A program made the translations under genes and the position numbers. This document shows, in pieces, positions 17,645-35,900 of a DNA stretch of 64,000 bases. Position 1 is the first letter of the stretch. The number at the start of each line of letters is the position of its first letter. The stretch is from Niabella agricola (GTDB taxonomy: Bacteria > Bacteroidota > Bacteroidia > Chitinophagales > Chitinophagaceae), in the NCBI RefSeq assembly GCF_021538615.1, contig NZ_JAJHIZ010000003.1, positions 3,968,001 through 4,032,000 on the forward strand, written 5' to 3'. The notes below the pieces were generated by a model. It saw only the letters and a program-made list of their open reading frames with translations. It had not been told where the DNA came from and made no database searches.

Positions 17645-19477
17645 TTAGTCGCTGTATACCATGTTTATCTCAAAGGGGAATGAAAAGGAAGCGTTGGTCT
17701 CCAGCTGGTAACGCAACTGCTTTTGCAGGTAGGCTAACTCGTCTTCTGTATAATCGGTTTCTTTCAGATAAAGATCGATTCCAATGGTTCGGGTAATGCC
17801 CGTTTTTGGACCCTGGAGTACGTTCATGGTTTTATTAATGATCACTTTTTGAAGCCGGTTGCCAAAAAGCTCGTGACATAAGAGCCGGATATCTTCCTTG
17901 CTGATAACCTTGCCTCTTGAAGAGAGCTGGCGTATCAACATTTGCTGCTGGGCATAATCGCTGTATGTTTCCACACCGCCGCTAACGGCGGTAAGTGCGA
18001 TGCAGGGGCTTCCCGTTAACGTATGCATTAACGGTTTAAACACGGCTGCCGCCTTTACAGCTGCCGCTGCGGCAGGGGTGGTGGACCAGTATTCTACAAA
18101 TACGGTTTCCTGCTCTTTCTTTGATCTTAGCAGCACATAATTAAAGGCCGGTTTTTCGTCCTTGGAAACGGCCAGACGCTCCTGCAAGCGTGTCAGCAGT
18201 TTGGAAATCTCGTGAAGCTGGGAGGCAATCAGGTCGTTGCTGGTTCTGCTAAAATAGGCGCTTTCATCCCGGATGCTTTCCAGCAGGCTGTTAATGGTAT
18301 TGCGCACATCGCGGCTGCTTTCTTTTCCAACTTTCGCAGATCTTACGATAGCCTGCCCTTCATGGATCGGGTCTTCGCCGGCATCGGGCCGTAGTTGATA
18401 CCGGGTACCATTTGCGCCTTCGATGCTTTTAATATCGAGGTAAGACCCTTTTACCGGCAAGGGAATGATATTGATCCATTTTTCAGTTTTAAAGTGGATT
18501 TTTTCCGGTTTCCGGTTTAATGCGGGGAATGCGTTTACGCCCACCAGCATCCGCTCCAGCGCTTCCTGTTGGAAGTGCCGGCTCAATTTAAGAGTGATAT
18601 AGATCACCTCCTTTGCGCGGATTTCTTCCTGCAGCTTATCCGGCAGATTTTGTAAGATGGAAGCATCCTGTGGAACGGAGACAAGGGATTCCTGCTGTAC
18701 GGTGATGAATTGTTGTTCATAAATACCGGCGACTTCTCTCCGGATTTTCCGGCTATAATCGCCTTCCATTTCAAGGCTGTCTTTCAGGCTGGTTTCGTAT
18801 TGCTGCTGTTGATAATATCCTTTTGTAAAACGGGTCTCCTGTTCATTGATAAACAACCGGGCATGTTGCAGCGCAAAATAAAAGTTCGCAGCCTCAGAGT
18901 GTCCTTTAAGATCGAAAAAGAGCTGCAATCCCTGCAAGCTTTCAAACAGGTCTTTTGTGTGCAGTGTAAAATGAATCTCATTAACAGGCGCTTTATCCTG
19001 CGGGGCTTCATATACCAGTGATTTACGCCCGGCGTCTCCCAGTTTATATACCCTGCTACCTGTTCTTAAGAACAAGGTATGTAGCCGGAATAGTTTTACC
19101 GAGCCGTTTGGGGTAAAGCAAAGCTCGGTTTCAGAAGATGGAGATCCGGCTGTTTGCGAGGCAGCTACCGTTGTAAAGCAATGTTCCTGTTCCAGTACCG
19201 CAGTTTGTTCCGCGGGTGTTGCTGTAATAACGCAGGAGGCCGGTTTTGCCCTTAATAAAGCATGAGGAAGCATGATGGTAGACAGCTCATTAAGCAAGCG
19301 GCTTTTTACGTCATTGATCTGATAGCCGATATGTTCTACTTCTCCGGCCAATACGTCAAAAATCAACATTAGCAGCGGATCAAAATTGGCTTCGATTTCG
19401 TTTTCAGGAACCTGCCAGTGCGCTGCTGCCAGGCGAATCATCCGGTCGCGGATCTGTTCTTTTTTTAAGAGTTCCAT
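17645..19477 (-). CDS. tssF: Type VI secretion baseplate protein TssF
   Basis: A 610-residue baseplate subunit. The opening MELLKKEQIRDRMIRLAAAHWQVPENEIEANFDPL region and the N-terminal L-L-N-E-L-S-T-I-M-L-P motif (around residue 65) match the TssF/VasA family, where the protein forms the wedge with TssG and TssE. Later recognisable blocks are F-K-T-E-K-W-I-N-I-I-P-L (near 335) and the C-terminal G-N-R-L-Q-K-V-I segment. Cytoplasmic, docked on the membrane complex. It is the last gene of the left T6SS unit, 36 bp after tssE. Confidence 0.85.
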   Translation of the reverse strand: MELLKKEQIRDRMIRLAAAHWQVPENEIEANFDPLLMLIFDVLAGEVEHIGYQINDVKSRLLNELSTIMLPHALLRAKPASCVITATPAEQTAVLEQEHCFTTVAASQTAGSPSSETELCFTPNGSVKLFRLHTLFLRTGSRVYKLGDAGRKSLVYEAPQDKAPVNEIHFTLHTKDLFESLQGLQLFFDLKGHSEAANFYFALQHARLFINEQETRFTKGYYQQQQYETSLKDSLEMEGDYSRKIRREVAGIYEQQFITVQQESLVSVPQDASILQNLPDKLQEEIRAKEVIYITLKLSRHFQQEALERMLVGVNAFPALNRKPEKIHFKTEKWINIIPLPVKGSYLDIKSIEGANGTRYQLRPDAGEDPIHEGQAIVRSAKVGKESSRDVRNTINSLLESIRDESAYFSRTSNDLIASQLHEISKLLTRLQERLAVSKDEKPAFNYVLLRSKKEQETVFVEYWSTTPAAAAAVKAAAVFKPLMHTLTGSPCIALTAVSGGVETYSDYAQQQMLIRQLSSRGKVISKEDIRLLCHELFGNRLQKVIINKTMNVLQGPKTGITRTIGIDLYLKETDYTEDELAYLQKQLRYQLETNASFSFPFEINMVYSD

Positions 19478-19513: not shown

Positions 19514-19948
19514 TTAATCCAATGTGAGCGGTCCGATGAATAAACCGGTTTGAAACCGGAACGGCTCCAAGGTCTTCTGGATCTGGCCGCTGATCGTAAT
19601 CTCGATCTTTCTTCTTGGCAGATCGGCACTTGGTGTTTTAAGCACGGTAAGTGTTACGTCTACATGCACTTCCACATGGGCAAGCCTTTTTTCATAAAGG
19701 GCGATCTGCTTTTTTAAATTATTCACGATTAATTCTTTCCGGGAATCATTATCGAGATGGATGTCGTAGTCTGTTTCCCAGAATGAAGCGCCGTATGCGG
19801 TATCTGTTTTATTCTCGCCCCGTCCTGTTGTTATGATCAGGTGCAGGTTGCGATAGATCGAATCCACCAGACCGCAGGAGGGAAGCTTTTTTCGATCGAA
19901 AAATTGGTCGAATCGCAGCGGCAATTTTAAATACTCTTTCACTTGCAT
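19514..19948 (-). CDS. tssE: Type VI secretion baseplate protein TssE (gp25-like)
   Basis: A 144-residue protein of the gp25/TssE lysozyme-like baseplate fold. It shows the family block YGASFWETDYDIHLDND (around residue 50), the equivalent of the G-x-x-x-W-x-x-x-F segment, then KELIVNNLKKQIALYEKRL and the beta-strand region KIEITISGQI. ATG at 19948 is preferred; the ORF can start three bases earlier at TTG 19951. It follows the tssP-like gene by 4 bp and precedes tssF. Confidence 0.85.
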   Translation of the reverse strand: MQVKEYLKLPLRFDQFFDRKKLPSCGLVDSIYRNLHLIITTGRGENKTDTAYGASFWETDYDIHLDNDSRKELIVNNLKKQIALYEKRLAHVEVHVDVTLTVLKTPSADLPRRKIEITISGQIQKTLEPFRFQTGLFIGPLTLD

Positions 19949-19952
19949 CAAT

Positions 19953-21044
19953 TTACTTATATGTAATGTATGTGATTTTTACACAGTTGCCGTTTGCCGG
20001 GTCTCTTACTACCTTAAAGGACTGGATCCTTTTTTTCCTTTTTAGCAACGGTAATCCTTTTTTTTCCTTCAGCTCGTTGCAGAGCGCTGCAAAGGTGGTA
20101 GACTGATTGTTGGCCATTACCTTGGTGCCTGCACCATTGCAAAGGATGTTATTAAAGTCGGCAATACTTTTTTTACCTTCTGTAACCTCTTCAAGCATTG
20201 CTTGTATGGCAGGCTCCGGTAGCTGATCGTATACTTTTGCTGTAGCGGGCTCCGGTTCCTGGGTTGCGGGTTTGGGTGCTTCCTGTTTGGGCTCCTCCTC
20301 TTTTTTTTCAGGAGCTGCTGCAGGAAGTGGGGGCGGGCCAACTTCAGCGGGGCCAGGGGGCAATGGCAGGCTGGATGTGGTATTGGGAGCAGGCCCCAAC
20401 GGATCGGTAACCTGGATGGTTTTTTGATAGGAAGCTCCCTGGTCCAGCTTGAGGGTCACCGTGAAAGTGCCGGCCTTTGAAAAAATAAATTTTGCGGTTT
20501 TAGTAATCTGTTGCCCCATTTCCGGTAGTTCCTGTATACTCCAGTTGTATGTAGCTGATTCGGCAGTGGTATTGAATACGGTTTCATTGCCGGTGGCCAC
20601 CACATCATCCGAGACAATGCGGTTAATCTGGGGGCTGCTGTTGGTACTGACCAGCGTACTGTTTTGAATGACCCGGATATTTATGGATTCCGCACAACGA
20701 CCGTTGATAATGGCGGTAACAAGATAGTTGCCTTCTTTGATAAAGCTGTGTGTTACCGATGCGCCGATCTGTGTGGCGGATTTATCACCAAAATTCCAGG
20801 TAACCATCAGGCTTGCATCATTGTGTGTAGCAAAAAAGCGAACCTGCTCATTTACAAAGTACGTGTGCGGGCCATCCGAAATATGATTGATATTGCTCGT
20901 GGTCTTTAACTGGAATTCTGGACAGGAAACATTGGTTACCACCTTATAGCTAAGCAGCGCCAGTGCTGTTACCGCAACGATGATCAGGGTGAACCATACC
21001 CTGAAATCCAGCCGGCCCCATTGTTTGGTATATACAAAATGCAT
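19953..21044 (-). CDS. TssP-like PKD-domain inner membrane protein of the T6SS
   Basis: A 363-residue protein with one N-terminal membrane segment (about residues 16-36) and a large periplasmic part. Residues 50-120 form a PKD-like domain (VTWNFGDKSATQIGASVTHSF region: the D-x-G-x-x-S/T PKD signature), with a second PKD-like unit around 135-215. A Pro/Glu/Lys/Ala-rich linker (about 220-275) leads to a C-terminal domain with two Cys. In Bacteroidota T6SS the accessory proteins TssN-TssR replace TssJ, TssL and TssM. From its layout, size and place between tssO and tssE this is most likely TssP. The assignment rests on context and recall of the family. Confidence 0.6.
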   Translation of the reverse strand: MHFVYTKQWGRLDFRVWFTLIIVAVTALALLSYKVVTNVSCPEFQLKTTSNINHISDGPHTYFVNEQVRFFATHNDASLMVTWNFGDKSATQIGASVTHSFIKEGNYLVTAIINGRCAESINIRVIQNSTLVSTNSSPQINRIVSDDVVATGNETVFNTTAESATYNWSIQELPEMGQQITKTAKFIFSKAGTFTVTLKLDQGASYQKTIQVTDPLGPAPNTTSSLPLPPGPAEVGPPPLPAAAPEKKEEEPKQEAPKPATQEPEPATAKVYDQLPEPAIQAMLEEVTEGKKSIADFNNILCNGAGTKVMANNQSTTFAALCNELKEKKGLPLLKRKKRIQSFKVVRDPANGNCVKITYITYK

Positions 21045-21070: not shown

Positions 21071-21592
21071 TTATTTTTGGCGCAGGAGCAGGTTCTGCAT
21101 TTCCAGTTGTTTATAGGAGTCCTGCCATTTTGTAAGCGAATTTTTTAGTTCCTGGATCTGTGCATTGTACATTGCAACTACCGAATCCTTGCTGCTGGCG
21201 GCCCGCAACCCTTTTTTATCGGTTTGCGTATTATTCAGTGCTTTGATGATCTGCGCGTAAATTTCTTTTGAACTGGTTTCATTTTTGTTCAATTGTGCAT
21301 CCATCTCCTGGATTTTTTGAGTAATGCGTCCATCGATGAGTCCTGATTTTGCAGGGTCCATATTAACGGTGTCCAGGAGCGACTGTGTTTGTAACATGTC
21401 ATTTGCAAAATGATCCCGGAACTGGTTTTCTTTTTCAATAATGGCCAATTGTTCGCGGAGCTTTTCGTTTTCTGCATAGGGAATCCGGATGCCGAAGAAG
21501 ATGGTGGTAATAATAAGCGCAATGGTCAGAAAAAAGAAAAGGAGGAACCTTGCAAAGGCACTGCTTCTTTCGTTGGTATTGTTGGGTTTCAT
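21071..21592 (-). CDS. tssO: TssO-like coiled-coil inner membrane protein
   Basis: A 173-residue protein: a short basic N-terminus, one transmembrane helix (about 14-36), then a long alpha-helical, heptad-rich periplasmic region with many Gln, Lys, Asn and Leu to the C-terminus. This is the layout of TssO, one of the accessory proteins of subtype iii T6SS. It lies between tssK and the tssP-like gene on the minus strand. It probably contributes to the trans-envelope complex. The name relies mainly on topology and position. Confidence 0.65.
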   Translation of the reverse strand: MKPNNTNERSSAFARFLLFFFLTIALIITTIFFGIRIPYAENEKLREQLAIIEKENQFRDHFANDMLQTQSLLDTVNMDPAKSGLIDGRITQKIQEMDAQLNKNETSSKEIYAQIIKALNNTQTDKKGLRAASSKDSVVAMYNAQIQELKNSLTKWQDSYKQLEMQNLLLRQK

Positions 21593-21639: not shown

Positions 21640-22791
21640 TTAACCGAAAAACCGGCGCTTGGGTTTGGGAGCGTTGGTATCATTAACCGGGAAAGATTGC
21701 TCTTCCTTTACGAATAGGCCCGAATCCTTCCGTTTGCCAATGAATTCCAGGTTGCTCAGTGTATTGAAGAGTTTCCCGATTACCTTGGCAAATTGTATGA
21801 TTTGCCGGATATTTTCATTGATATCATTGTGGTTGTATCGGAGCAGGGCCATTTCATTCAGCAATCCTTCCAGTTCGCCTTGGTTCAGTTCGCACCATTC
21901 ACACAGGTAACTCATCAACTCATCTTTTCCGGACCCGATACGCAGATCGATCGTGTTTTTTATGACTCTGGACAAGGCTGCAATGTAGCTGAGCATTTTC
22001 GCCGGTGATTCGTAAATAATGCTCCACCGGTACTCGGTGATCGCCTGTCCCAGGAAAAGCATCATCCGGTCGCAAAGGAATCGTGCCAGTTCCGATAATG
22101 CGTTCTGCTGGCTTTTTTTATAGATTTTCTGAACGATTATGGAGCAGGATTGTTCCAGCCCGGCCAGGAACTGGTCTAGCTCAGCATGCAACCCGGTCAG
22201 GTCCGGCGATGCAGCCGTGGCGATGCAGGGAGGAATATATTCTTCTTCAATATGTGCTCCATTTCCATTTATAATTACCTTGCCGATAATGATGGCCAGA
22301 GGGTGCTGGCTATATTGCTGGATATTGTGCGCATCTGCAATATGGACGCTGAATCCTGATTTCACATAGGGAAAACGGGCGGGCGTTTCATCGGGATCGA
22401 TAGCTCCTGCGGGATTTCTTTCAAAGGGTTTTGCTAGCAATACAACCCAGCCGGTGGTTGGCTGGTTACTGTTGATCTCCAGTGATATTGCAGGAACACC
22501 ATCTGTTGCTGCCGCATCCGTGAATGCATCGATAATGACCGGTACCCCCGACCGTGTAAGTGCTTTCAACGCCAGCACCGATACCCGGATGGTGTTCTGG
22601 TTGTCGACGGAAAGGCGCACATTGAAATTTTTTTCATCCGGGATCAGCCCATACCGGATGGGTGAAAGCGTGGTTGCCGTAAGCTGGTGGGCCGTGGCGG
22701 CAGCGGCATTGTCCTGGGCAATAAAAAGTTCTTTATTCAGCTTCATGCCATCTGACCAGTTTACACGCAAAAAATGAAATCCGTTGTCCAT
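21640..22791 (-). CDS. tssK: Type VI secretion baseplate-membrane linker TssK
   Basis: A 383-residue TssK-family protein that joins the baseplate to the membrane complex. It begins with the family motif V-N-W-S-D-G-M-K-L (around residue 10; TssK commonly has W-x-x-G-x-x-L). The middle is a beta shoulder domain, followed by a helical region (LARFLCDRMMLFLGQAITEYRW near 240) and a C-terminal head rich in I-R-Q-I-I. The tail is P-K-P-K-R-R-F-F-G, and a similar tail ends the DUF4123 adaptor of the same locus. Lies 21 bp downstream of tssN. Confidence 0.85.
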   Translation of the reverse strand: MDNGFHFLRVNWSDGMKLNKELFIAQDNAAAATAHQLTATTLSPIRYGLIPDEKNFNVRLSVDNQNTIRVSVLALKALTRSGVPVIIDAFTDAAATDGVPAISLEINSNQPTTGWVVLLAKPFERNPAGAIDPDETPARFPYVKSGFSVHIADAHNIQQYSQHPLAIIIGKVIINGNGAHIEEEYIPPCIATAASPDLTGLHAELDQFLAGLEQSCSIIVQKIYKKSQQNALSELARFLCDRMMLFLGQAITEYRWSIIYESPAKMLSYIAALSRVIKNTIDLRIGSGKDELMSYLCEWCELNQGELEGLLNEMALLRYNHNDINENIRQIIQFAKVIGKLFNTLSNLEFIGKRKDSGLFVKEEQSFPVNDTNAPKPKRRFFG

Positions 22792-22812: not shown

Positions 22813-23664
22813 TTAAACGCGTTCACAAATAATAATGGTATTTTCTTTGATACGATTCTGAGCTACGGTCGTGGTTGCATTCAGCACCCTGGAAAAACGA
22901 TACCATTTCGGACGGGTACGGAACAACCATTCTGCGACCTTTCCCTGGCTGGTATATTCGATGGGTGTTTCGCTGTGGTCTTCATTGTATTCATTAATAA
23001 AATGATAGAACAGATCCCCCAGCAGCATATCTTCCGGGGCTTTCCCTCTGAAAAAAGTACGTTGCTGATCACCGGTAATCTTTTTTGCAATTTCAAACCA
23101 GATCACATACAGGTGCTCGCCCTCTTTTTCATCCGGCATTTCGATCTCCTGCTGCGGGTAGGTCCAGGAGGTATAATCCGGTGGCGGGATACTGATGGCG
23201 GCATCGAACGTGTGAAGCAGCAAAATGGGAATAAAAAAGAACAGCATACACAGCAATACGGGGAAGTACATGAAGTTCCGGTCTTTCAGGAAATATTGCA
23301 GTGAAGAAAAGATCGACACACAGAGGAAGAGAATGGAAAACCCAAATAGAAGCTCGGCAAATAATTGTTTGTTCCGGTTATCGCGCCGGGCTCGAAAATA
23401 TTTTTTATGAATGAGTAATAAAAACAGCAGGCCAAGCAGGAGAAATACCCCGCTCAGCAACCAAAAAGTAGTAAACAGGTTTTGAGTAATATAGGTGATG
23501 GCAAATGCAGTACCGGAAGAAATTGCTGCTGTTATAAAACTAAAAATCCAGGGCTTTTTACCCATGTTGCTGAAAGTGCTGCTCATTTGCCGGATAAAGG
23601 GTATCAAGGCCAGTGAAGAGAAAAGGAAGATCCCTGCGTAGAGTATAAAAAACTTTAACGCCAT
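22813..23664 (-). CDS. tssN: TssN-like polytopic membrane protein
   Basis: A 283-residue protein with about five transmembrane helices in residues 1-160 (for example FFILYAGIFLFSSLALI, FITAAISSGTAFAITYI, WLLSGVFLLLGLLFLLL, LLFGFSILFLCVSIF, FPVLLCMLFFFIPILLL) and a soluble C-terminal domain of about 110 residues. TssN, the multi-pass inner membrane component of Bacteroidota T6SS, has this layout. It sits between tssG and tssK, as in other subtype iii loci as I recall them. The soluble part contains a conserved-looking YHFINEYNEDHSETPIEY segment (around 215-235, read in parts). Confidence 0.75.
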   Translation of the reverse strand: MALKFFILYAGIFLFSSLALIPFIRQMSSTFSNMGKKPWIFSFITAAISSGTAFAITYITQNLFTTFWLLSGVFLLLGLLFLLLIHKKYFRARRDNRNKQLFAELLFGFSILFLCVSIFSSLQYFLKDRNFMYFPVLLCMLFFFIPILLLHTFDAAISIPPPDYTSWTYPQQEIEMPDEKEGEHLYVIWFEIAKKITGDQQRTFFRGKAPEDMLLGDLFYHFINEYNEDHSETPIEYTSQGKVAEWLFRTRPKWYRFSRVLNATTTVAQNRIKENTIIICERV

Positions 23665-23704: not shown

Positions 23705-24598
23705 CTAAATATGAGCTCCGTAGCCTAATACTGCGCCAAGGTCTTTGCCGGCCGCTTCTTCCCGGATCTCGAATTCGAACTGCACGTCCATTTCAAAAGG
23801 GATAAAGAGGTCCTCAAATTTTTGAAGAATCGTCATTTTGTTGGGCTGTTTGACAAATGGCTGCATTTCTTCATTCGATGTTCCCTCGATGGTAAAAATC
23901 CAGCAAGGGAAAAACTCAAGGGTGTTGTGCCCCAGCACACTGTCCATTCCCATATGCGTTTCCGTAAGTATTGCGGGGTGTTGCATAGCCACGGTATTCC
24001 TGCGTTCTTCCTGCCGCAGCACTACTTTTTTACTGAGGATATGGCCAAGCGCCGCTTCTGTGGAAGCCGCATCCCCCTTAATAAAATGGAGATAAGGCAT
24101 TAGCTGCAGCATCCGGCCGGCTTCTTCCTCCGGAAGTGATTCATTAAAATTCCAGAAACGGAACCACGCCGGGTCCCGCCTTCCGCTTTGCAGTGTAAAC
24201 AGCGCCTCCCGTTCTTCCGCTTCCACAAAAACCTGATACCGGAACAATAATTGTTCAAGGGGGGCAAAAAAACTCCGGGCCTGCCGCTCTTCCTCCCTGA
24301 ATCGTTTGTGCTCATCCACGGCATCCTGAACGGTGCGCACGCGGCTGTTGCCCTTTGTTTGATGAAAAAGTCCCTCGGGCAGCTTATCATAGATACCATC
24401 CCGGTTCAACATCATCTCAAAAATGCCTTCGGTTTCGGTTGCGACCATTTCGGATACATCCATGCTAAAGCTTTTTTTGAAACCACCTTTTGCATGGACG
24501 ATAATTTTTTCCAACTCCACTCCTGACTCAATTAATCCCGCGCATATGGCTTCTGCGCGAAACGGAGGTTTCATAATATGGTGACCCCGGGAGCTCAT
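23705..24598 (-). CDS. tssG: Type VI secretion baseplate protein TssG-like
   Basis: A 297-residue protein, first gene of the left unit. The segment GIYDKLPEGLFHQ near residue 68, in which a glycine-rich turn precedes the LPEGLFH motif, is characteristic of the Bacteroidota TssG-like baseplate protein. The C-terminal half is beta-rich and ends G-Y-G-A-H-I. TssG forms a heterotrimer wedge with two TssF. Identity is supported by context with TssF, TssE and TssK, and by the family segment; overall divergence from proteobacterial TssG is high. The start at 24598 is assumed; ATG at residue 9 is an alternative. Confidence 0.68.
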   Translation of the reverse strand: MSSRGHHIMKPPFRAEAICAGLIESGVELEKIIVHAKGGFKKSFSMDVSEMVATETEGIFEMMLNRDGIYDKLPEGLFHQTKGNSRVRTVQDAVDEHKRFREEERQARSFFAPLEQLLFRYQVFVEAEEREALFTLQSGRRDPAWFRFWNFNESLPEEEAGRMLQLMPYLHFIKGDAASTEAALGHILSKKVVLRQEERRNTVAMQHPAILTETHMGMDSVLGHNTLEFFPCWIFTIEGTSNEEMQPFVKQPNKMTILQKFEDLFIPFEMDVQFEFEIREEAAGKDLGAVLGYGAHI

Positions 24599-24763: not shown

Positions 24764-24879
24764 GCTGTGTAATCTAGGAAAGGACAACAGGTATGCATCG
24801 GGTATCAGTTCCGTTGATTTACCTTATATACAGTGAATGGTTCATTTCATCTGTTAAAAGCCGGCTTAAATCACAACAC

Positions 24880-26793
24880 ATGTCGAACGACGCCATTTTG
24901 AGTAAAACTGAAATTATCATCCAGGGATATCAAAACAGCCAGCCTGTTTTATTTTCGAATCTGTTGCTGGATGAAGCGCTTGTAAAAGTGAATTACTTCT
25001 CTTTTTCCATGCGTGCAGATGATGATCATGCCACCCTCGATGCGATCATCAATTTTAAAAAATCGGTCCTGGGAAAGGAACTTCAGATCGAGTTCAAGGA
25101 CAGCAGCGATGCTTCGCGCCACCGGTTTAAGGGCGTTATCGAAGCAGTAAACTCATCGTTGATCGATGAACACTATTACGAATTTCAGATCAGCGGCTCG
25201 GGGCTGTTTTGTAAAATCAACAAGATACCGGAATATCATTCTTTTTATAAACAGACGCTTTCGGATATCATTGATAAGGCCTATAAGGATTCGGAACTCA
25301 AATCGCTGGTGAAAAAAGCCCCCGGGTATACCCGCCCGCTCCACTACACCGTTCAATACAATCAGACCTTATTTGATTTTACTACATCGCTGGCGCTGCG
25401 ATTCGGAGAATGGGCTTACTATGATGGAGAATATTTTTTGTTTGGAAAAAAGCCCGATGGTCAAGCCATAGAATTGTTTGCCCCGGATGATGTGTTTAAC
25501 CTGAATATTCATGCGCATGTACTGCGAAATGCGCGTGCCATGGTGGGCACGGACAGTTTTAAAGGAGAAACGCTTCGTTCTTCGAAAGAAGAAGCTGTTC
25601 CAGAGAATGCAATGTTGAAAGCTGCACAGGACGCCGGCAAAAAAGCACTGGAAACGCGGGGCGATGACTTCGTGGCCTCAGGTTTTGACCAGGAAATGAT
25701 GGATCATATTTTCCGTATCGACCAGCAGTCCAGCTATACAGCCTCGGCAGCTATAACCGGTAGCACGCGGAACAACCAGCTGGCGATCGGCCGGATCATC
25801 CAGATCAAGGACCAGGATGATTCCGGGGGAAAGCGGTTTATCATCACCCAGATCCATCACAGCGCTATGCGGGCAGATCATTACAGCAACCATTTTACGG
25901 CGGTGCCTTTTGAATCGGAGATCCCCCCTTATGCCAATGCTGCTGTTTTTCCAAGAGCTGTTTCCCAGGTCGGTATTGTAACCGACAATGAAGATGATGC
26001 CGGGATGGCGCGGGTAAAGGTGAAATTTCCCTGGATGACGGACGATGAAAAAAGTCCCTGGATCCCACTGGTTGTGCCCCATGCGGGTGACCGAAAAGGA
26101 TTCCGGTTCCTTCCGGAAATTGAGGATGAAGTAATGGTGCATTTTACAGACAATAATGCGGAGCGGCCCTACGTGGTTGGCGCATTGTATACAGAAAAAC
26201 ATAAACCCCAAATACCGGAAAAAGGTAATCATATAAAACGGATTGGTACCAAGACAGGAAGGCGGCTGGAAATGGATGACGAGAAAGGTGAAATGATGCT
26301 GGCAGATGATTTTGACAACGATATCGGTAACCGGCTTTATTTATTAAAGAATAAGGAGCAAAAACTAATAAAGCTTACCAGCGGTAACGACGACGATAAT
26401 TTTTCGGTGGTTTTTCTCGATGGTGATAAGGGGCGTGCGACCGTTGGCGTGAAAAGTGGCGGCAATGTAATTCTTAAAATCGATATGCAACGGGATGGTA
26501 CAGTTATGGACATTACTTCGGAGGGTACGATCAATATTAAAGCGAAGCAGTCCCTTAACCTGGCCGCAGATGAGATCAACATTAACGCGACGAACGTAAG
26601 TATAAAAGCAGACGATACGCTTTCGCTGAAAAGTAAGATGTCGGCGGAGCTTTCGGCGGCAGATATAAAAGTAGATGCCAGCGCTTCACTTGATCTTAAC
26701 GGATCGGGCCAGGCAAAACTGGCCGGTGCTATGCTGGATCTGAAAGGCGATGGTATCGCATCGTTGACCGGGGCCCTTGTTAAAATCAACTGA
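24880..26793 (+). CDS. vgrG: Type VI secretion spike protein VgrG (TssI)
   Basis: A 637-residue spike protein. It has the gp27-like base domain (about 1-370; IIDKAYKDSELKSLVKK, FDFTTSLALRFGEW near 175), the gp5 OB-fold (about 370-460; VGIVTDNEDDAGMARVKVKFPW motif) and a C-terminal triple-stranded beta helix with repeated I/V-x-I/L-x-A patterns (INIKAKQSLNLAADEININATN, described in parts) ending in KLAGAMLDLKGD and VKIN. It caps the Hcp tube and carries the PAAR tip. ATG 24880 begins the conserved sequence; an ORF extension to 24793 is unlikely to be translated. First gene of the right T6SS unit. Confidence 0.93.
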   Translation: MSNDAILSKTEIIIQGYQNSQPVLFSNLLLDEALVKVNYFSFSMRADDDHATLDAIINFKKSVLGKELQIEFKDSSDASRHRFKGVIEAVNSSLIDEHYYEFQISGSGLFCKINKIPEYHSFYKQTLSDIIDKAYKDSELKSLVKKAPGYTRPLHYTVQYNQTLFDFTTSLALRFGEWAYYDGEYFLFGKKPDGQAIELFAPDDVFNLNIHAHVLRNARAMVGTDSFKGETLRSSKEEAVPENAMLKAAQDAGKKALETRGDDFVASGFDQEMMDHIFRIDQQSSYTASAAITGSTRNNQLAIGRIIQIKDQDDSGGKRFIITQIHHSAMRADHYSNHFTAVPFESEIPPYANAAVFPRAVSQVGIVTDNEDDAGMARVKVKFPWMTDDEKSPWIPLVVPHAGDRKGFRFLPEIEDEVMVHFTDNNAERPYVVGALYTEKHKPQIPEKGNHIKRIGTKTGRRLEMDDEKGEMMLADDFDNDIGNRLYLLKNKEQKLIKLTSGNDDDNFSVVFLDGDKGRATVGVKSGGNVILKIDMQRDGTVMDITSEGTINIKAKQSLNLAADEININATNVSIKADDTLSLKSKMSAELSAADIKVDASASLDLNGSGQAKLAGAMLDLKGDGIASLTGALVKIN

Positions 26794-28053: not shown

Positions 28054-30033
28054 ATGCCGGGAAAAGGAGCCGATACCAAACAGGATTTTGAATTGAACGA
28101 TATCCGGCAACTGCTGGTACTGGTGCGGTACCGGCCTGCAGGCGCGGTAGCTGCAGATAGCATGTTGGGCGGCATGGCCGATACCTTGCAAGGAGCGGTT
28201 GATAAACTGGAATCAGCTGCAGCCGCAATCCCCGGCCTTAACCTGTTTTTTAAAGAAGAAACCGAACCGGAAAAAAAATGCGACAAAGAATACACTTATT
28301 ATAAAGATTATAAAGACTGGGATGCGTATATCAGGAAAATGAAAAACGAGCTTTCCAATAAACTGCATATCGATAATGAGGCGCTGATTTTTGATTTCGA
28401 TGCCTCCGATGCTGAAGGCCGGAAAAAAGAAGGGCAGAAGCTCTGTACACAAATAAAGGCAAAAACGGCCTCCTGGAAGGGATACAGTTCCTGCTTTCAT
28501 TTTGTGGGATTGGGGCAGGGCGGTAACGTAGCCAATGAATGCATCCGGGAATTAAGCCAGGATGAGGGATTTAAAAATAAATGGTGGGTGCAGTCGGTGG
28601 TCTATGTGGCTACACCCTTCTACCGTTATCAGCATACCTTCGATGAGCCGGCAGCTTTTAAAGGGAAGGGCCGGAAATATGCCTTTGGTAACCGTTTTGA
28701 TTTGACCGCGCAGGTGATCGAATATTTTGAACCCAACGATACGTTGCGCCGGGTGATCGCCGAATGCAATGCCAATCCGCTTTCAGTGTTTACAGGCAAA
28801 ATTAAAATGCGGCTGGTAGCGGCACTGGCCAACCTGCTAAGTATTGACGGGTTTGGAACCGGCAAGGATAACGAAGGGCATTTGAACCGGTTGAAACAAA
28901 CAAAGGAAGAGGTACGCGGGCTGATAGAGGAATGTGTGCATGCGGTTAAAAACCTGGTGAACGTGATTCCGAACCTGGTGAAACCAGCTGATCTTCCAAA
29001 GTTCGATCAATTATTGAAGGACCTTGATGCGATACCGGGGCAATCAGTGAGCCGGCTGGAAAAATTTCTTGACGAAATTAAGCATGCCGCACAGGGCACG
29101 AGCCTGGATACCAGCCGGATCAAAAAGGAAAAGGTTTTAAACTTTCTGTGCCCGCTGGTAGATAAGCTTACAGATATGCTCCGGATGTTTTCCGTGGACT
29201 CTGAAACCTCCAATGCAGTGGTAGACCGGTTGATGAAGCAGGCGGAAGTAAAAAAGATCCGGGCACCGAAAAACGAAGCCGTTACACAGCTGGGTGTGGA
29301 CCCATACCTGGAGAAGGTAGCGAAGATGGCCGCGGAAGCACAGGTGAAGGAAGCACAGCAAAAAAAAGAAGGAAAGGAACCCGGCCCTCAATCGGCGAAT
29401 GCGATTGTATATGATCAGTCTGTGGCCATGATCAATACCTGCAGGGAATGCATTGTTGCAATAACCGAAAAGCAGGACCTGGATCTTGCAAATCCCAATA
29501 TCTCGGGGGAGGACAGAGCGCGTATGGCAACGGCGGTTACAGCTCTTTTGTTGCCGATGATGCCTTCAAAGAAAAAATTTTATGCGAAATTATTGCAATA
29601 CCTCCCGCTTGGAGGTTTAAACGGTTTTCTTTCGAAACTAACGGGTGATGCGGCTTTCGCGCCGTTGAAGCAACTGACAGGCACATTCCTGGGTGATTTT
29701 GATGAAGGTACTCCGGAGGAACCCGGCTTAAAGACATCTATAAAAAATTTTGATGCAGAACTCAAACGGGTAAAGGGGTTTTTGAACCGGAACAATTATC
29801 CCGTGCACAAGGATGCAAACAGTTTGTACTTTATTTATAACAGTCATAACCAGATGTTGAAAAAAGCGTATGGCCCTGTATTGCAGGTCATAGACAAGGA
29901 AACCGGATACCTGGATTACATGGTTAATACAGGGGCAGCGCATTTTTTTAACCTGGAAAAGAATGAATATACGCAGGGTGCTTCAGGGGGGGCGCAGGAT
30001 GCGGTGCCGGCCATAAAGAAGCAGGCGTCTTAA
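28054..30033 (+). CDS. T6SS-linked lipase-fold protein lacking the catalytic serine
   Basis: A 659-residue protein. After about 60 residues with low similarity to anything known, residues 85-245 resemble an alpha/beta hydrolase: Y-Y-K-D-Y-K-D-W, then FHFVGLGQGGNVANE (around 150) and VVYVATPFYRYQH (around 190). The nucleophile elbow G-x-S-x-G is G-L-G-Q-G, so the serine is replaced by glycine. The rest is mostly helical (about 250-600), ending in a Gly-rich tail. It may be an inactive scaffold or a component of effector loading. It lies 14 bp after the PAAR gene. Not assigned to a named family. Confidence 0.55.
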   Translation: MPGKGADTKQDFELNDIRQLLVLVRYRPAGAVAADSMLGGMADTLQGAVDKLESAAAAIPGLNLFFKEETEPEKKCDKEYTYYKDYKDWDAYIRKMKNELSNKLHIDNEALIFDFDASDAEGRKKEGQKLCTQIKAKTASWKGYSSCFHFVGLGQGGNVANECIRELSQDEGFKNKWWVQSVVYVATPFYRYQHTFDEPAAFKGKGRKYAFGNRFDLTAQVIEYFEPNDTLRRVIAECNANPLSVFTGKIKMRLVAALANLLSIDGFGTGKDNEGHLNRLKQTKEEVRGLIEECVHAVKNLVNVIPNLVKPADLPKFDQLLKDLDAIPGQSVSRLEKFLDEIKHAAQGTSLDTSRIKKEKVLNFLCPLVDKLTDMLRMFSVDSETSNAVVDRLMKQAEVKKIRAPKNEAVTQLGVDPYLEKVAKMAAEAQVKEAQQKKEGKEPGPQSANAIVYDQSVAMINTCRECIVAITEKQDLDLANPNISGEDRARMATAVTALLLPMMPSKKKFYAKLLQYLPLGGLNGFLSKLTGDAAFAPLKQLTGTFLGDFDEGTPEEPGLKTSIKNFDAELKRVKGFLNRNNYPVHKDANSLYFIYNSHNQMLKKAYGPVLQVIDKETGYLDYMVNTGAAHFFNLEKNEYTQGASGGAQDAVPAIKKQAS

Positions 30034-30045: not shown

Positions 30046-30702
30046 ATGTTCGACGGGTTGGGAGATTACTTGAGGGCCCAGGCTATTTGCACGGGGGCGA
30101 CAGACGAGCAGGTGTATAATTCGATTATGAATTACTGGACCTGGATCTCACCGCAGCCCAATGCCCGGGCGCACCTGTGGCACTACCGGCGCGGTGGGGG
30201 CAGCGAATATGCTGAACCGCAGCTGGGCGATCTGTTTAATGCGAACCCGAGAATCCGGTCGAAAATATTTGACGCCATTGGGAGACAATTGCAGGTCCAT
30301 CCTCATGATGACTCGGGAAGTATTATCGGGCGTGGGGTAGATGACGGGCACCCGCCTCCCATCAGCCAGGGAGATTATGATTCGGAAGACTGGCTGAATG
30401 CTAACGGCAATATCGATGAAGTGCATTGGCGTTTGGAAGGGGATTACAATCCCTACGATAACCGCGAAACCGACGAGCGGGCTTACCTGCTCCGTGCGCT
30501 TCGCAGAGGCACTGTTTTCCTGATGCGGGTACAGGTATCGATCCGGGATCCGTATACCTGGCATCCGAACGAACAACGTCCAACCCAATGCATTCATCAG
30601 GCAATGGAACGGCTGAAAGCTTCAGGTGCGGCCGACTATATTACAACAGGGACTACCGTGCTTTCCATGCCGTCTGTGTACCTGCCGGGTTGGGTGCGAT
30701 AG
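30046..30702 (+). CDS. Candidate T6SS effector (unknown domain)
   Basis: A 218-residue protein of unknown function. It is rich in Asp, His, Trp and Tyr with charged clusters, as expected of a toxin domain. Its C-terminal part reads D-P-Y-T-W-H-P (around 165) then R-P-T-Q-C-I-H-Q-A (around 175) and K-A-S-G-A-A-D-Y. This combination recalls polymorphic-toxin-type domains (DUF6402-like) of proteobacterial secretion loci, a resemblance from memory only. It lacks a signal peptide and is encoded in the spike-adaptor-PAAR cluster, which suggests a secreted cargo. No separate gene for an immunity protein fits between it and tssB. Confidence 0.5.
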   Translation: MFDGLGDYLRAQAICTGATDEQVYNSIMNYWTWISPQPNARAHLWHYRRGGGSEYAEPQLGDLFNANPRIRSKIFDAIGRQLQVHPHDDSGSIIGRGVDDGHPPPISQGDYDSEDWLNANGNIDEVHWRLEGDYNPYDNRETDERAYLLRALRRGTVFLMRVQVSIRDPYTWHPNEQRPTQCIHQAMERLKASGAADYITTGTTVLSMPSVYLPGWVR

Positions 30703-30737
30703 GAAAGAAGGGTTTTTATCGAATAAAACAAAAGATC

Positions 30738-31187
30738 ATGACAGATGACATAGCAGGAGAGGATTTTAACCGCAGGCAACAGCTTGCGGAAACGGTGGCG
30801 GAGATCGCGCCGAACCGGACGCTGATTGCCGGATTGTTAACGGCCCAAGCACCATTAAAGCCGGAGGCAGTGTACGGGTTGCAAAACCTGGAAATGGTGT
30901 TTGCGCATTATCAGCCGGAACTTGCGGTAGCGCTGGAAGCGGCAACAGGCGGCATCGTAAAGGAAACCCTTCGGTTTTGTGGCCTGGAAGACTTTGCTCC
31001 CAGTCAGATCGGCATCAGAAGCGGAGTGCTCCGGGAAAGCCGGTTTCAGTCAACAGTCTATCTGAATGCCGTCCGTATGTTGAGATCAAATGCTTCTTTA
31101 AGACAGGTACTTGTATCCAAAGAAAAGAGATCAGATATGCATACCGCCATTAAAAAAATAATGGTACTGCTGGAACAATATTTATAA
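30738..31187 (+). CDS. tssB: Type VI secretion sheath small subunit TssB
   Basis: A 149-residue protein. I-A-P-N-R-T-L-I-A-G-L-L-T near residue 20, A-P-L-K-P-E-A-V-Y-G-L near 40 and E-T-L-R-F-C-G-L-E-D-F near 80 match the Bacteroidota TssB family, including the length of about 140 residues. It interlocks with TssC to build the contractile sheath. The ORF continues upstream to 30588 over the previous gene; ATG 30738, 35 bp after the previous stop, is the natural start. Followed by the tube gene and tssC. Confidence 0.85.
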   Translation: MTDDIAGEDFNRRQQLAETVAEIAPNRTLIAGLLTAQAPLKPEAVYGLQNLEMVFAHYQPELAVALEAATGGIVKETLRFCGLEDFAPSQIGIRSGVLRESRFQSTVYLNAVRMLRSNASLRQVLVSKEKRSDMHTAIKKIMVLLEQYL

Positions 31188-31206: not shown

Positions 31207-31689
31207 ATGTCATTTTATGCGATACTAAAAATTTCCGGGAAGACCTACAATGTACTGAGCGTTGCATATGATTTTAAAAAATCAACCGATCAGTATGGTA
31301 AGCCCAGGGTTGGAACAGATGGCGGAATGATCAGCCTGATGGTTGAGTCTTCCCTGGATACCTTGTTTATAAAATGGATGCTGTCTCCTACGATGACGCA
31401 GGATGGCGAAATCATTTTTATGAAACGAGATACCAAGGCAGCCATGCGGCGGGTGAAGTTTTCCAACGGGTACTGCCTTAACTATTCAGAAACTTTTACC
31501 GGGTCGGGCGAAAACCCAATGACCATCGGGCTACTCATCTCATGCAGCAAAATGGAAATTGACGGTGAAGTGTTTGATAAATCCAAATTCTGGGGTGGCG
31601 CCGGCTCGGGTGGAACAAAGTCGGGTGAAACAGCCGGCACCAGCAACAATACTTCCGGTGGTGGGGTTAGCTCCTTTATACCCGATTAA
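31207..31689 (+). CDS. tssD: Type VI secretion tube protein Hcp (TssD, Bacteroidota type)
   Basis: A 160-residue protein with the Bacteroidota TssD pattern: S-F-Y-A-I-L-K-I-S-G-K-T-Y-N near the start, D-Q-Y-G-K-P-R near 35, and C-L-N-Y-S-E-T-F-T-G-S-G near 95. It stacks as hexamers to form the inner tube. Residues after about 127 form a Gly/Ser/Thr-rich tail (GGAGSGGTKSGE start) that the core fold does not need; family members usually stop near 130. The tail could lie on the ring edge or in the lumen. Operon position: between tssB and tssC. Confidence 0.88.
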   Translation: MSFYAILKISGKTYNVLSVAYDFKKSTDQYGKPRVGTDGGMISLMVESSLDTLFIKWMLSPTMTQDGEIIFMKRDTKAAMRRVKFSNGYCLNYSETFTGSGENPMTIGLLISCSKMEIDGEVFDKSKFWGGAGSGGTKSGETAGTSNNTSGGGVSSFIPD

Positions 31690-31710
31690 CAGGCATTGAA
31701 CCTGGGAACA

Positions 31711-33048
31711 ATGACAACACATACCGACCATATAACAGCAGTTTCTTTAGCACCAGATATTGAGGCGGTGCAATCGATCCCGGAGGATAGTTTCGAACTC
31801 CTTGTATCCCTTATGGAAGCGATACAATACCTGAACCCGGACCGGAGGGCGCAAATGGATCTGTTTCTAAGTGAAGCCGGCTTCCGGGAAGAGCGTGCTG
31901 GTTTACTGGCCCGGCTTCGCATCTGGAACGCCTTGCTGGACACAGGACTGGATGCAGATGCCCTGGCAAACCATTGCGAAGACATCGCAACTGAAGAACA
32001 AGGCCGTTATCAGCAAAATCTGAAGGCGGTTCTGCAGTGCAGCAAAAATCTGGAATGCATGTACCGCTGTGTTCATGCCTTTTTTGAAAATACAGAAAAA
32101 GACCGCGTTCCTAATGTAACCTTTTTGAACGCTGGTCTGGAACAGCTAAAAGATACAGATGCACCGGTTTTTATCAATTTTGTACGGGAAGAGTTTAAAA
32201 AGAACTATGACCGGCTGGATCTCAGGGATCATTATAGCCTATTGGTTATTCCGGGCTATCTCGGCGGTAGAGCGATGGTGGAAGTTTGGGGAAAGTTGGC
32301 GCATGAGCATAAGGTAATGCTGATCACAGATTTTGAACACCTGGATGCGCCGGATGATGTGATGGAACTATTTGAGCGTGTGCAACACGCAGGGGGCGAA
32401 AAGTTTTTATCCAGCGTAATGATGACCTGTAACTGGCTGGTGGCCAGAGGTGGTTATGCGGTGGCCGGAGAAGAGGAAGACCTGTTTATGCCACCTGCTC
32501 CGGCACTGGCCGGAAAACTGTATACAACAATGATGAGCCAGGTGGCCGCAGGTAAAAAATTCGGAGTGCTCCGGGGAGTGAATGGGGTGGCTTTCGAATT
32601 AAAGAAAAGTGAGATTGCACACCTGGAAAAAATGAGCCTGATCCCGATGGTAAAGGAACAGGGCTATGTAATGGCTTTTTCTGCAAAAACCTTGTTTAAT
32701 GGAGATAATATGGGTTTACAGACCTATTCTGTGGTCCGGGTATTTGATTATGTAACCAAGGTGCTGATCGACTTCCTGAATCGCAGGGCCTTTGAAAACT
32801 TTAATGCTAATACAAGGAGAGAGCTCATGACACAGATGGTGCTGTTCCTGGACAATATTTCAGGGCCGCGGAAACTGGTTGAGAATTTTACAATCCGGCG
32901 TTTCGAACAGGATGCCGTAAAAAAAGACAATATTCACCTGGATATTTTTATGAAGCCCTATTTCCCTGCCAAAAACTTTCTGATCAAGATGGAAGGGCAG
33001 AAGAATGATGAGGGAAAAATTTGGGACACCGACTATGACGATTCCTAA
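31711..33048 (+). CDS. tssC: Type VI secretion sheath large subunit TssC
   Basis: A 445-residue sheath subunit. The opening is followed by a helical region, then F-L-N-A-G-L-E-Q-L near residue 140 and L-L-V-I-P-G-Y-L-G-G-R-A near 180. The C-terminal part has G-P-R-K-L-V-E-N-F-T-I near 390 and ends in D-T-D-Y-D-D-S. It forms the sheath with TssB and contracts on firing. TTG at 31696 would extend it by five residues; ATG 31711 is preferred. Twenty-one bases separate it from the Hcp gene. Confidence 0.88.
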   Translation: MTTHTDHITAVSLAPDIEAVQSIPEDSFELLVSLMEAIQYLNPDRRAQMDLFLSEAGFREERAGLLARLRIWNALLDTGLDADALANHCEDIATEEQGRYQQNLKAVLQCSKNLECMYRCVHAFFENTEKDRVPNVTFLNAGLEQLKDTDAPVFINFVREEFKKNYDRLDLRDHYSLLVIPGYLGGRAMVEVWGKLAHEHKVMLITDFEHLDAPDDVMELFERVQHAGGEKFLSSVMMTCNWLVARGGYAVAGEEEDLFMPPAPALAGKLYTTMMSQVAAGKKFGVLRGVNGVAFELKKSEIAHLEKMSLIPMVKEQGYVMAFSAKTLFNGDNMGLQTYSVVRVFDYVTKVLIDFLNRRAFENFNANTRRELMTQMVLFLDNISGPRKLVENFTIRRFEQDAVKKDNIHLDIFMKPYFPAKNFLIKMEGQKNDEGKIWDTDYDDS

Positions 33049-33112: not shown

Positions 33113-34747
33113 ATGTATACATCCGGTTATTTAAAAAAATGTTTATTGATCGCACTGTGTTGTTCGTTTTATTACGCGCAGGCCAGGTCCCAGAATATCA
33201 ACGGGGAAAAGATCATTGTAGGACGTGAAAGCATTACAATTATCAATTTTCCGGATAAGGTGGTGAACATCAATTTTTCGGATGAGGCGGCATACGACTA
33301 CTATATTCCCAAGCGGAGAGAGGAACGGTCCATCTCTATCCAGTTCAATAAAGAGAAAGCCAGCGGACCGGTTACCGGACTGCTGGTAAATGAAGGCGGG
33401 CGCAGCCATATGTTCCGGTTGTTGTTTGATTCTACCTATGATATCAATGATGACAGCCGCCCGCCCCTCTGGTACGATCATTCCAATTTAAAAGAATTGA
33501 AAGCCTTTGTAAAGAATCAGAAGGATCCGTCTGAAACAAGCACAGGCGATGAACTGGCAAAAGAAAAAGAGCGGCAAAAAAAGGAAGCTGCGGAACGCCG
33601 GGAAGAGGCATTGGCTGCGCAGAAAAAATCTGAGGAGTCGGCAGTAACAAAGGCACCAGCAGCTGCGGCGGAAGAAAGTGGATCGGAACGCAGGCAGAGG
33701 GAAGCGGCGTTGGAGCTTGCGCGCAAGGAAGCAAAGGAAAAAGAACGGCAACTGCAGCTGGCCGCTGAAAAGGAAGCGGCTGCCCAAAAAGCTGCGGAGG
33801 AGCAGTCCCGCAAAGAGGCGGCTCAACTGGCTTTACAAAAGGAACAGGATGAAAAGAAACAGAAAGCATTAAGAGAGCAGCAAAATGCAGAAGCGTTAGC
33901 CCAGGCACAAAAAGAGGCGGCTGAAAAAGAAAAACGGCAGCAGGAACAATGGGCCCAGAAGAAAAAGCAGGAAGAAGAACAACGGAAAAGGGCTGCCGAA
34001 GAGCTGGCCCGCAAAGAAGCAGCACGAAAGGAGGCACAGGAGCGGCTGGCGAAGCTTGAGGCGGAGCGTCAAAAGAAAGAAGCTGAAAAGGCGTATTCGG
34101 AAGCGGGTATCTGGCAGCGGTATGGAAAAAAAGGAATAGACCTCTATAATTTTCCAAGGAACCAGGTGCCAACGGTAAATTCGGATTTTTACGTGGTACG
34201 CGATACGCTCAGGAATTTCCGGATCTCCGATTCCCTGCTCCATACTGATATCCCGGATAAACTCAATATCGTTGCCGATAAACCCATCAATAAAGGAGTA
34301 GTGATCTCACTGGAAAATATTGTGTTTAAGGACGTACATACTTATTATAAACTCAAAATTGAAAATAATACTGATGAAGACTTTCTTATGGGAAGAACCT
34401 ATATGTACTGGTACGACGGCGCCGACCGGGCGAAGATGATGGTAAAGGGCAGTTATCTTACCTATATCGGTTTTTTTCCGCTGGTACGGCCCAAGACCAC
34501 GCAACATGTGGTATTTGTAACGCGCTCTCCCAATATGGTAAACGATGAGAGCCTGGTATTGTTTGTAGACGAACGTAGAAAAGAAAAGGGTACGGCCAGT
34601 ATTGTAATCCCGGGAAGCAATTATAACAAGGTATTGGAAAGTGTACAGGTAAGAGTGGGAACTTCTACCCCAGGTAAAACCGCCGCACCCGCAACAGGCG
34701 GTGACTCCCGCACAAAGAAACGGGCAAAAAATAACAGGCAATTATAA
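33113..34747 (+). CDS. Periplasmic TraN-like protein with a large coiled-coil insert
   Basis: A 544-residue protein that does not match a known T6SS part. A signal peptide (1-27) is followed by a beta-rich domain (about 28-115: I-I-V-G-R-E-S-I-T-I-I-N-F, Y-D-Y-Y-I-P-K-R-R, H-M-F-R-L-L-F-D) resembling the N-terminal part of VirB9/TraN-type periplasmic proteins of Bacteroidota conjugation machines. Residues about 140-345 are a long Glu/Lys/Ala/Gln-rich coiled coil. Residues 345-520 form a second beta domain (F-Y-V-V-R-D-T-L-R-N, Y-Y-K-L-K-I-E-N-N-T, F-P-L-V-R-P-K-T-T) also TraN-like. It lies between tssC and a transglycosylase, so it may be an envelope-spanning component of this T6SS. Confidence 0.6.
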   Translation: MYTSGYLKKCLLIALCCSFYYAQARSQNINGEKIIVGRESITIINFPDKVVNINFSDEAAYDYYIPKRREERSISIQFNKEKASGPVTGLLVNEGGRSHMFRLLFDSTYDINDDSRPPLWYDHSNLKELKAFVKNQKDPSETSTGDELAKEKERQKKEAAERREEALAAQKKSEESAVTKAPAAAAEESGSERRQREAALELARKEAKEKERQLQLAAEKEAAAQKAAEEQSRKEAAQLALQKEQDEKKQKALREQQNAEALAQAQKEAAEKEKRQQEQWAQKKKQEEEQRKRAAEELARKEAARKEAQERLAKLEAERQKKEAEKAYSEAGIWQRYGKKGIDLYNFPRNQVPTVNSDFYVVRDTLRNFRISDSLLHTDIPDKLNIVADKPINKGVVISLENIVFKDVHTYYKLKIENNTDEDFLMGRTYMYWYDGADRAKMMVKGSYLTYIGFFPLVRPKTTQHVVFVTRSPNMVNDESLVLFVDERRKEKGTASIVIPGSNYNKVLESVQVRVGTSTPGKTAAPATGGDSRTKKRAKNNRQL

Positions 34748-34775: not shown

Positions 34776-35900
34776 ATGAAAGGCCCTTATACAAGCAAAC
34801 TCAGACCTTTGAATACATGTAAAAAATATCGGATTATAGGACTCTTCCTGGTTTTTGTATCCATTCCCGGGAGTGCGCAGCATTTGGTTTCTTTTTGCGG
34901 GGAGCCAGTTCCCATGGATCAGCAGTTTATACAGGACAAACTGATCAATACCATTCGTAAACAGGTAAACGTGGTGAATTTTCCGGCGCTCCGGAGAAGA
35001 GCGTTTGCCTACTTTCCGCTGGTAGAACGTTACCTGGCCGCATATGGCCTTCACCGGGATCTGAAATACCTGCCGATTGTTGAAAGTGGCTTTCTTACAG
35101 AGGAGGAATCGGCCGTAGGCGCAAAAGGCATCTGGCAGATCATGCCCGCAACGGCCCGCAGCTACGGGCTGGTGATCGATGAAACCCGGGATGAACGGGA
35201 GAACTTTGATAAGGCTACCCGCCTGGCCTGTACCCTGATAAAAGATAATTACAATATGCTGATCCGTTTTGTAGGCCGAACCAACTGGCCGCTGACCATC
35301 GCTGCGTATAATTTTGGCATTGGTAATATCGTAAAGGCGGTAAAAGCACAGGGATATAATTATTTTACCATGAAACTGAATCCTGAAACGGCCCTGTATG
35401 TATATAAGATCATTGCAGTAAAGGAATTGTTTGAATACCCGGAGCTGTATAATGCCAAGTTTGGGTACAATATTTTTAATCCTAGATCAGGACCGAAAAA
35501 TATGCCGGCCTCCAGGGATCTGAAAGTGGTGAATGACCCGGATGTATTACAGGAAATTGAAAAGGAGGTAGCAAAAAATGCCGACAAAAAAGAAACAGTA
35601 GTGCGGGAAGAATATGTGATGGCGCATGTGCTGGGGCGGATCCGGAATTTCCAGGATGGAGATATTGTAGATATCGTGCTGGACGAAGACCTGCAAACGG
35701 CCCGAAAGGGGCTTTCGTATAAAGGATATAAATTTGGAGTACAGGGTTGGATCATCGACGATCGTGTTTACTTTAAGTTGGGATACGACCATGACGTGAC
35801 CCTGTTGGATACCAATAAGGAAAAAGGGATCTTGCTGACCGACCTGCTTTCCAGCAAACGGATCGATGTGCTGCTCAAGAACCTGCTCTATGAAAAATAA
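34776..35900 (+). CDS. Lytic transglycosylase of the T6SS locus
   Basis: A 374-residue protein with a signal sequence (YRIIGLFLVFVSIPGSAQ). The SLT domain shows the catalytic Glu in I-V-E-S-G-F near residue 105, G-A-K-G-I-W-Q-I-M-P-A-T-A near 120 and A-A-Y-N-F-G-I-G-N near 180. It would cut peptidoglycan in the periplasm, making room for an envelope-spanning apparatus. Residues beyond 260 contain a domain of unknown type. ATG 34776 gives the best signal peptide; the ORF extension to 34701 lies inside the previous gene. Its stop abuts the stop of the convergent LytTR gene. Last gene of the right unit. Confidence 0.83.
   Translation: MKGPYTSKLRPLNTCKKYRIIGLFLVFVSIPGSAQHLVSFCGEPVPMDQQFIQDKLINTIRKQVNVVNFPALRRRAFAYFPLVERYLAAYGLHRDLKYLPIVESGFLTEEESAVGAKGIWQIMPATARSYGLVIDETRDERENFDKATRLACTLIKDNYNMLIRFVGRTNWPLTIAAYNFGIGNIVKAVKAQGYNYFTMKLNPETALYVYKIIAVKELFEYPELYNAKFGYNIFNPRSGPKNMPASRDLKVVNDPDVLQEIEKEVAKNADKKETVVREEYVMAHVLGRIRNFQDGDIVDIVLDEDLQTARKGLSYKGYKFGVQGWIIDDRVYFKLGYDHDVTLLDTNKEKGILLTDLLSSKRIDVLLKNLLYEK

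Follow-up and report, generated by a model that had tools for sequence, protein, structure and literature searches.

A secreted VirB9/TraN-like rod protein encoded with a lytic transglycosylase as a candidate envelope component of a TssR-less type VI secretion subtype in Chitinophagaceae

Introduction

The membrane complex of the Bacteroidota kind of type VI secretion system (T6SS), T6SSiii, was defined in B. fragilis, in which a TssNQOPR complex is needed for secretion and TssR is a possible outer-membrane lipoprotein (PMC10781749). According to the same source, TssO was missing or could not be identified in 27% of systems, TssQ in 23% and TssR in 31%, and its authors raise the possibility that such systems co-opted other genes (PMC10781749). 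They also mention MltE as a housekeeping wall enzyme that serves the T6SS of enteroaggregative E. coli, with TssM/TagL (PMC10781749).

Another envelope machine enters the comparison made below, the type IV secretion system (T4SS). There the N-domain of VirB9 builds a periplasmic ring; TraK and DotH are chains of the VirB9 family, whose members belong to the outer-membrane core complex. The inner layer of that core is dominated by VirB9 N-domains (PMC12857230). The present work concerns a stretch of 64,000 nucleotides of the Niabella agricola genome (hereafter the window), in which one gene, here called X, lies within a T6SS locus and codes for a protein with affinities to both VirB9 and the conjugation protein TraN.

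The T6SS locus of the window

Upstream of X, on the forward strand, the gene order is tssB-tssD-tssC. The sheath protein TssC (31696..33048) matches PF17541 with an E-value of 9.2e-188 and TssD, the Hcp protein (31207..31689), matches PF17642, while the sheath protein TssB (30588..31187, start uncertain) was assigned by a profile family that stands beside tssC or tssD across loci, one member of which has sub-threshold similarity to VipA. VgrG (TssI; 24793..26793, PF04717 and PF05954) is on the same strand. The rest of the system is found on the reverse strand and comprises a TssG-like protein (23705..24598; its profile family has a member with sub-threshold similarity to PF06996), TssN (22813..23664, PF17555), TssK (21640..22791, from sub-threshold similarity to PF05936 and gene order), TssO (21071..21592, PF17561), a TssP-like PKD protein 27 nt from tssO (19953..21044, PKD matches), the gp25-like TssE (19514..19951, PF04965) and TssF (17645..19477, by a profile family with a member that matches PF05947). 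The known membrane-complex genes of Bacteroidota, i.e., those for TssN, TssO and the TssP-like PKD protein, are thus present.

The window also codes, at positions 28054-30033, for a protein of 659 aa without a Pfam family above cut-off. Its relatives occur at 8 of the 50 TssC loci described below (its own included), all of them X systems, in the vicinity of VgrG, DUF4123 and PAAR genes, and it is possibly a T6SS cargo. A second T6SS of another kind exists in the same genome (C3:3.878-3.898 Mb); there an NlpC/P60 lipoprotein-like gene (L135 4194-4841), which is read from the opposite strand, separates tssO from tssP.

Anatomy of the X protein

X (33113..34747, forward strand) starts with ATG, is located between tssC and a lytic transglycosylase (SLT) gene and codes for 544 aa in which scans of Pfam and NCBIfam gave no family above cut-off. 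Counting X itself, 49 proteins with lengths of 331-623 aa were found with its residues 336-544; one of them carries the name TolA, and 26 homologues were aligned with X (alignment A1). Since homologues were found and could be aligned, the ORF is not a chance one, and the gene pointed out by the sequence-only reading is real and conserved. Residues 1-26 (33113..33190) form a signal peptide, its type judged by eye, that looks cleavable: by eye we saw no lipobox in the signal region and no transmembrane segment after it. Q27 is invariant across the 27 aligned rows.

An AlphaFold2 model made with A1 as input (mean pLDDT 68.8) shows two beta domains with helices between them, as had been proposed. 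The N-terminal beta domain (residues 27-124, 33191..33484) has a VirB9 N-domain-like fold, and the C-terminal one (residues about 362-511, 34196..34645) is Ig-like; ten-residue blocks of the beta domains have pLDDT values mostly of 72-91, with loops near 62. The C-terminal domain is preceded by a conserved linker (residues 328-361, 34094..34195) with the motif IW/LWxRYGxxGI, and followed by a disordered, basic tail. The modelled helices cover residues 147-177 and 196-326, with good confidence from about 251 to 340 and poor confidence from about 112 to 250.

The part between the domains had been described as a charged coiled coil of 205 residues. The charge was confirmed (48% charged residues, with 22% Ala), whereas the rod measures 196 residues (132-327, 33506..34093) and gives no heptad signal: the content of A/F/I/L/M/V at the a and d positions of the best frame was 0.34, lower than the mean of shuffled sequences (0.38 +/- 0.03). 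Acid-base pairs at i,i+4 numbered 21 in each order, against 11.4 +/- 2.6 in shuffles. With an excess of such pairs and no heptad signal, a single charged alpha helix fits the sequence of the rod better than a coiled coil does. TolA domain II is a rod of this type. Taken at 0.15 nm per residue, the 131 residues of helix 196-326 would by themselves extend over about 20 nm. The spacing between the motifs of the two domains was 155-348 residues in 46 of the 49 proteins (median 276), and among more distant relatives the connection is still more variable. Four have TPR repeats, recognized by Pfam, as the inter-domain part (G007, 948 aa; G172, 616 aa; G004 and G055b). Two others, G006 (297 aa) and G177 (287 aa), are nearly rod-less and have a size close to that of TraN; their genes (L138 10697-11590 and L163 10657-11520) are located between tssC and SLT.

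Relationship to VirB9 and TraN

The best matches of the X N-domain among solved structures were the N-domains of T4SS VirB9 proteins. For the C-domain the affinity was with TraN, the DUF4138 (PF13595) protein of Bacteroidota conjugative elements: its profile matched that of TraN/DUF4138 with a probability of 96 and an E-value of 4.7e-9, and further profile matches support the relation. The VirB9/TraN likeness that had been suggested for the two ends of the protein therefore stood for the fold of the N-domain and for the profile of the C-domain; it did not extend to the N-domain of TraN, against which the X N-domain gave no significant profile match. When the profiles of both X domains were concatenated and compared with TraN, the C part alone was aligned, and a reversed control did no better. 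X also showed no significant similarity to a TraN sequence taken singly, and PF13595 did not match X at E-values up to 1; in a search of the whole genome it matched another gene only.

The fold of the C-domain is a common one, and the structure search with it returned a generic list of Ig-like domains. The VirB9 C-domain was not among the matches listed for the single-domain searches, an absence that does not exclude that fold. Core chains of the F plasmid aligned over both X domains, but with an rmsd of 13-14, and neither domain alignment yielded a usable result in profile searches of the PDB. X shares its N-domain fold with the VirB9 family (TrwF, CagX), from which it differs by the 196-residue rod between the domains, by a C-domain without VirB9 counterparts among the matches listed and by its T6SS context. 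TraN, in turn, resembles X in the C-domain profile, but has no rod, and the N-domains of the two are unmatched by sequence.

X across genomes

We searched 244 Chitinophagaceae genomes with a profile of the X C-domain (A2; two homologues with frameshifts, L008 and L009, were left out of the domain alignments, and L010 entered A2 with its open part only), taking as strong the matches with E under 1e-15. Matches were found in 18 genomes, 15 strong and three weak; the latter, counted as not X, were DUF4138 proteins in G030 and G225 and a match of 254 aa in G116. TssC above cut-off was detected in 40 of the 244 genomes, a background of 16%. All 15 genomes with strong matches, from nine genera, have TssC (p 1.3e-13, a value that disregards the relatedness of the genomes), so that every strong X match comes from a genome with T6SSiii. 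In genus g21, both genomes with TssC have X, and G020, without TssC, lacks it. A spread of X in T6SS-free genomes, considered for loci L011-L014, was rejected as all four genomes have TssC elsewhere; adding that of L007, five of five do.

Linkage to tssC is less constant. X adjoins tssC in seven of the 15 genomes and is on another contig in six; in G157 it is 20 kb from tssC, within the T6SS operon, and in G236 about 30 kb away. Homologues do accompany T6SS genomes, but in seven of 15 the pair formed by X and SLT is far from tssC. The case of G157 (L083) is one in which X, and then SLT, come directly after tssG-N-K-O-P-E-F on one strand.

A wider profile, A3, matched 28 of the 244 genomes: the 15 strong ones, G172 (with TssC about 5 kb off), G098, G223 and ten with TraN-size matches only. 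G098 and G223, genomes without TssC, contain TPR-like proteins (repeats recognized by eye; L078 7450-9771 and L079 9466-11466) with an X-like C-domain and no N-domain, and the 19 kb read around them had no SLT. In 345 Bacteroidia genomes we found, besides X of N. agricola itself, only five matches of TraN size (276-282 aa), of which the two checked were DUF4138 proteins beside TraM. The 15 TssC genomes outside Chitinophagaceae in this class sample gave no X, nor did the regions of 20 kb to either side of TssC that were read in six of them.

X and TssR at TssC loci

About 20 kb were read around 50 of the 53 TssC places of the family (less at contig ends; two fragments and one below cut-off were dropped), and L083 was added for G157. 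X was linked at 13 of these loci, TssR at another 13 (12 in the stretch read and G055a by coordinates), both at none and neither at 24. Seven of the latter belong to systems with X elsewhere in the genome, leaving 17 with neither. The mutual exclusion is statistically weak (P 0.01), and the loci are related. By Pfam, TssR was present in 21 of 55 T6SS genomes. It was found in two of the 16 X genomes (G001 and G101) vs. 10 of the 24 other genomes of the family (Fisher p 0.08), or in three of 20 vs. nine of 20 when the divergent X of G004, G006, G055 and G177 were counted (p 0.08). In the two-system genomes G001, G101 and G055, TssR is beside one system and the other falls in an X clade of the TssC tree.

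This tree contains 48 of the 50 rows (G001b and G065, in which no TssC ORF over 250 aa was called in the stretch read, were left out), 20 of them labelled X, including the seven unlinked systems labelled by genome; in G001 and G101 the label was assigned by excluding the TssR-linked system. Changes of state numbered three for X, three for TssR and four for neither, vs. 15.6, 10.1 and 14.2 in shuffles. The X loci form two clades, in which 14 of 14 and six of seven members have X, the exception being G227, where X was not detected. Long branches (G003b, G172b, G000b, G022b, G177 and others) make the details of the tree unsure. In G004, G006, G055b and G177 X was assigned on low scores (17-57 bits), the C-domain going undetected in G004, G055b and G177.

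The two kinds of locus differ also between tssO and tssP. The gap is 3-33 nt in eight X systems (three labelled by genome) vs. 515-702 nt in six TssR loci, where a gene for 155-174 aa is found inside. In the TssR locus of G225 (L148 4399-5367) two adjacent genes both match PF17561 (TssO), and G026a has two profile matches; one of the paired TssO-like genes in TssR loci may be TssQ. In G004 the X-like protein (30 bits, N-domain only) is encoded between TssP and SLT, the place of TssR in G225. A separate peculiarity is found in L158 (G149), with three consecutive TssR-like genes in one T6SS locus.

TssR, also of split architecture, was considered as a possible relative of X and rejected. Its profile matches neither X domain nor TraN (hhalign probabilities of 0.5 and 0.3 with the two X domains), and a TssR of the family matches PF17643, PF20780, PF20782 and PF20781, none of which matches X. 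Both proteins are exported, a locus has one or the other, and both are often near a wall enzyme. The barrel, second, VWA and C domains seen in that TssR are all lacking in X.

The transglycosylase and other wall enzymes

The gene that follows X codes for an MltD-like lytic transglycosylase of 374 aa (34776..35900, forward strand; PF01464, E 2.4e-16). Its start was corrected: ATG 34776, 28 nt after X, is more likely than GTG 34701, which overlaps X. Residues E103, S104, Y178 and N179 are invariant in all 13 aligned rows, and we take them to be the conserved Glu-Ser and AYN-type motifs of MltD-like lytic transglycosylases; the score with the NCBIfam MltD model was 83.5, under the cut-off of 508. 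SLT was downstream of X at the 13 loci of our first set and at all 15 of the survey. In the first set tssC was directly upstream of X at nine, and the other four had no match to a T6SS protein of the window within 10 kb.

The wall enzymes found differ with the kind of TssC locus. SLT of the X type was present at 11 of the 13 linked X loci (the stretches read at G055b and G172a have none) and at 0 of the 37 other TssC stretches; a shorter SLT at 10 of the 13 loci with TssR and at none of the 37 others; and an NlpC/P60-like protein at 11 of the 17 loci with neither X nor TssR and 0 of 33 others, the last two kinds being confirmed by Pfam on two proteins each. In all eight stretches that show both tssO and tssP, the NlpC/P60 gene separates the two, and in 10 of 11 it is on the strand opposite to its neighbors. 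Overall, many systems within each kind seem to be equipped with a wall hydrolase of their own.

Discussion

The proposal that X is a trans-envelope component of the T6SS gains support, within what sequence comparison can give, from its domains, its pairing with SLT and its co-occurrence with T6SS; the comparative evidence for a role in the T6SS is good. We consider it somewhat probable that X is an exported periplasmic component of the envelope in a TssR-less subtype of T6SSiii, standing in for TssR and having its own SLT for passage through the wall. Since a long charged helix joins a VirB9-like domain to a TraN-like one, X probably builds a ring or cage round the T6SS channel, or caps one, and would span the peptidoglycan layer. 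Local opening of the wall by SLT would allow insertion of the TssN-O-P membrane complex, with X positioning or regulating the enzyme. Having no lipobox that could be seen by eye, X would be soluble or held by partners, while taking the periplasmic or outer role of TssR. Some systems may do without such a protein, as 17 of 50 loci have neither X nor TssR. An elongated helix reaching into the periplasm is also a property of TssO and TssQ, but these are helical proteins with one transmembrane segment, in contrast to the beta domains and cleavable-looking signal of X. As a wall hydrolase for T6SS assembly SLT would resemble MltE, which differs in being a housekeeping enzyme in E. coli, while here the SLT gene is paired with X.

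The pairing with SLT is the most constant feature of X, more so than linkage to tssC, and could also be taken to mean that X and SLT are only an accessory module of the T6SS, with X as an adaptor or regulator that holds SLT at the assembly site and is no part of a channel or cage. The wall enzymes of the other loci (10 of 13 with TssR, 11 of 17 with neither), which make wall opening seem a general need, and the precedent of MltE and TagL (PMC10781749) agree with this; we nonetheless find it rather unlikely, as an adaptor alone leaves the exclusion of TssR and the VirB9-like domain unexplained, and TssR loci keep TssR despite having an SLT. An envelope module of general use, only incidentally serving the T6SS and co-occurring with it through shared ancestry, would fit the seven of 20 X systems away from tssC, the TolA-like rod (and the homologue named TolA) and the relatives of the C-domain found in TPR proteins of G098 and G223, which lack TssC. 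Against the 15 of 15 co-occurrence over a 16% background, and the distribution in genus g21, where only the genome without TssC lacks X, it appears improbable.

That X is a relic of a T4SS, a TraN of conjugative origin that was caught next to a T6SS island and has no role in the T6SS, would account for the relation of the C-domain, and yet seems very improbable to us: X has been kept together with the SLT gene over nine genera, the 30 window ORFs scanned with Pfam contain no T4SS family (VirB7, VirB10, etc.), and TraN genes exist separately, in this genome and in G101, as well as at four checked loci of other genomes, where they match PF13595 and adjoin TraM (PF12508). We give equally little credit to X being a secreted effector or immunity protein, in spite of sharing a strand with vgrG, PAAR and the gene of the 659 aa protein, for it has an export signal and no toxin family, and X and SLT are kept also where these genes are not adjacent (e.g., L083, L084 and L167).

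Returning to X as an envelope component in place of TssR, a wider version can be put forward tentatively, and we regard it as possible although on balance doubtful. Two lineages of T6SSiii would have adopted an envelope protein of T4SS origin (VirB9/TraN), together with a dedicated wall-cutting enzyme, replacing TssR, and would have placed a charged helix, a TPR array or no rod at all between its domains. T6SSiii would then have a modular envelope complex that was rebuilt more than once.

In a search weighted towards open-access literature we found nothing that relates DUF4138 to type VI secretion. Among the papers listed on Bacteroidota T6SS, TssN/TssQ/TssR, transglycosylases and NlpC, a set with few subscription papers or preprints, none showed a description of X or of its module with SLT. 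X and SLT are a testable candidate for a co-opted part of the Bacteroidota T6SS membrane complex. If the proposal is true, the lack of TssR in one set of systems would be accounted for by X, which would also connect the outer-membrane ring of T4SS with a contractile injection machine.
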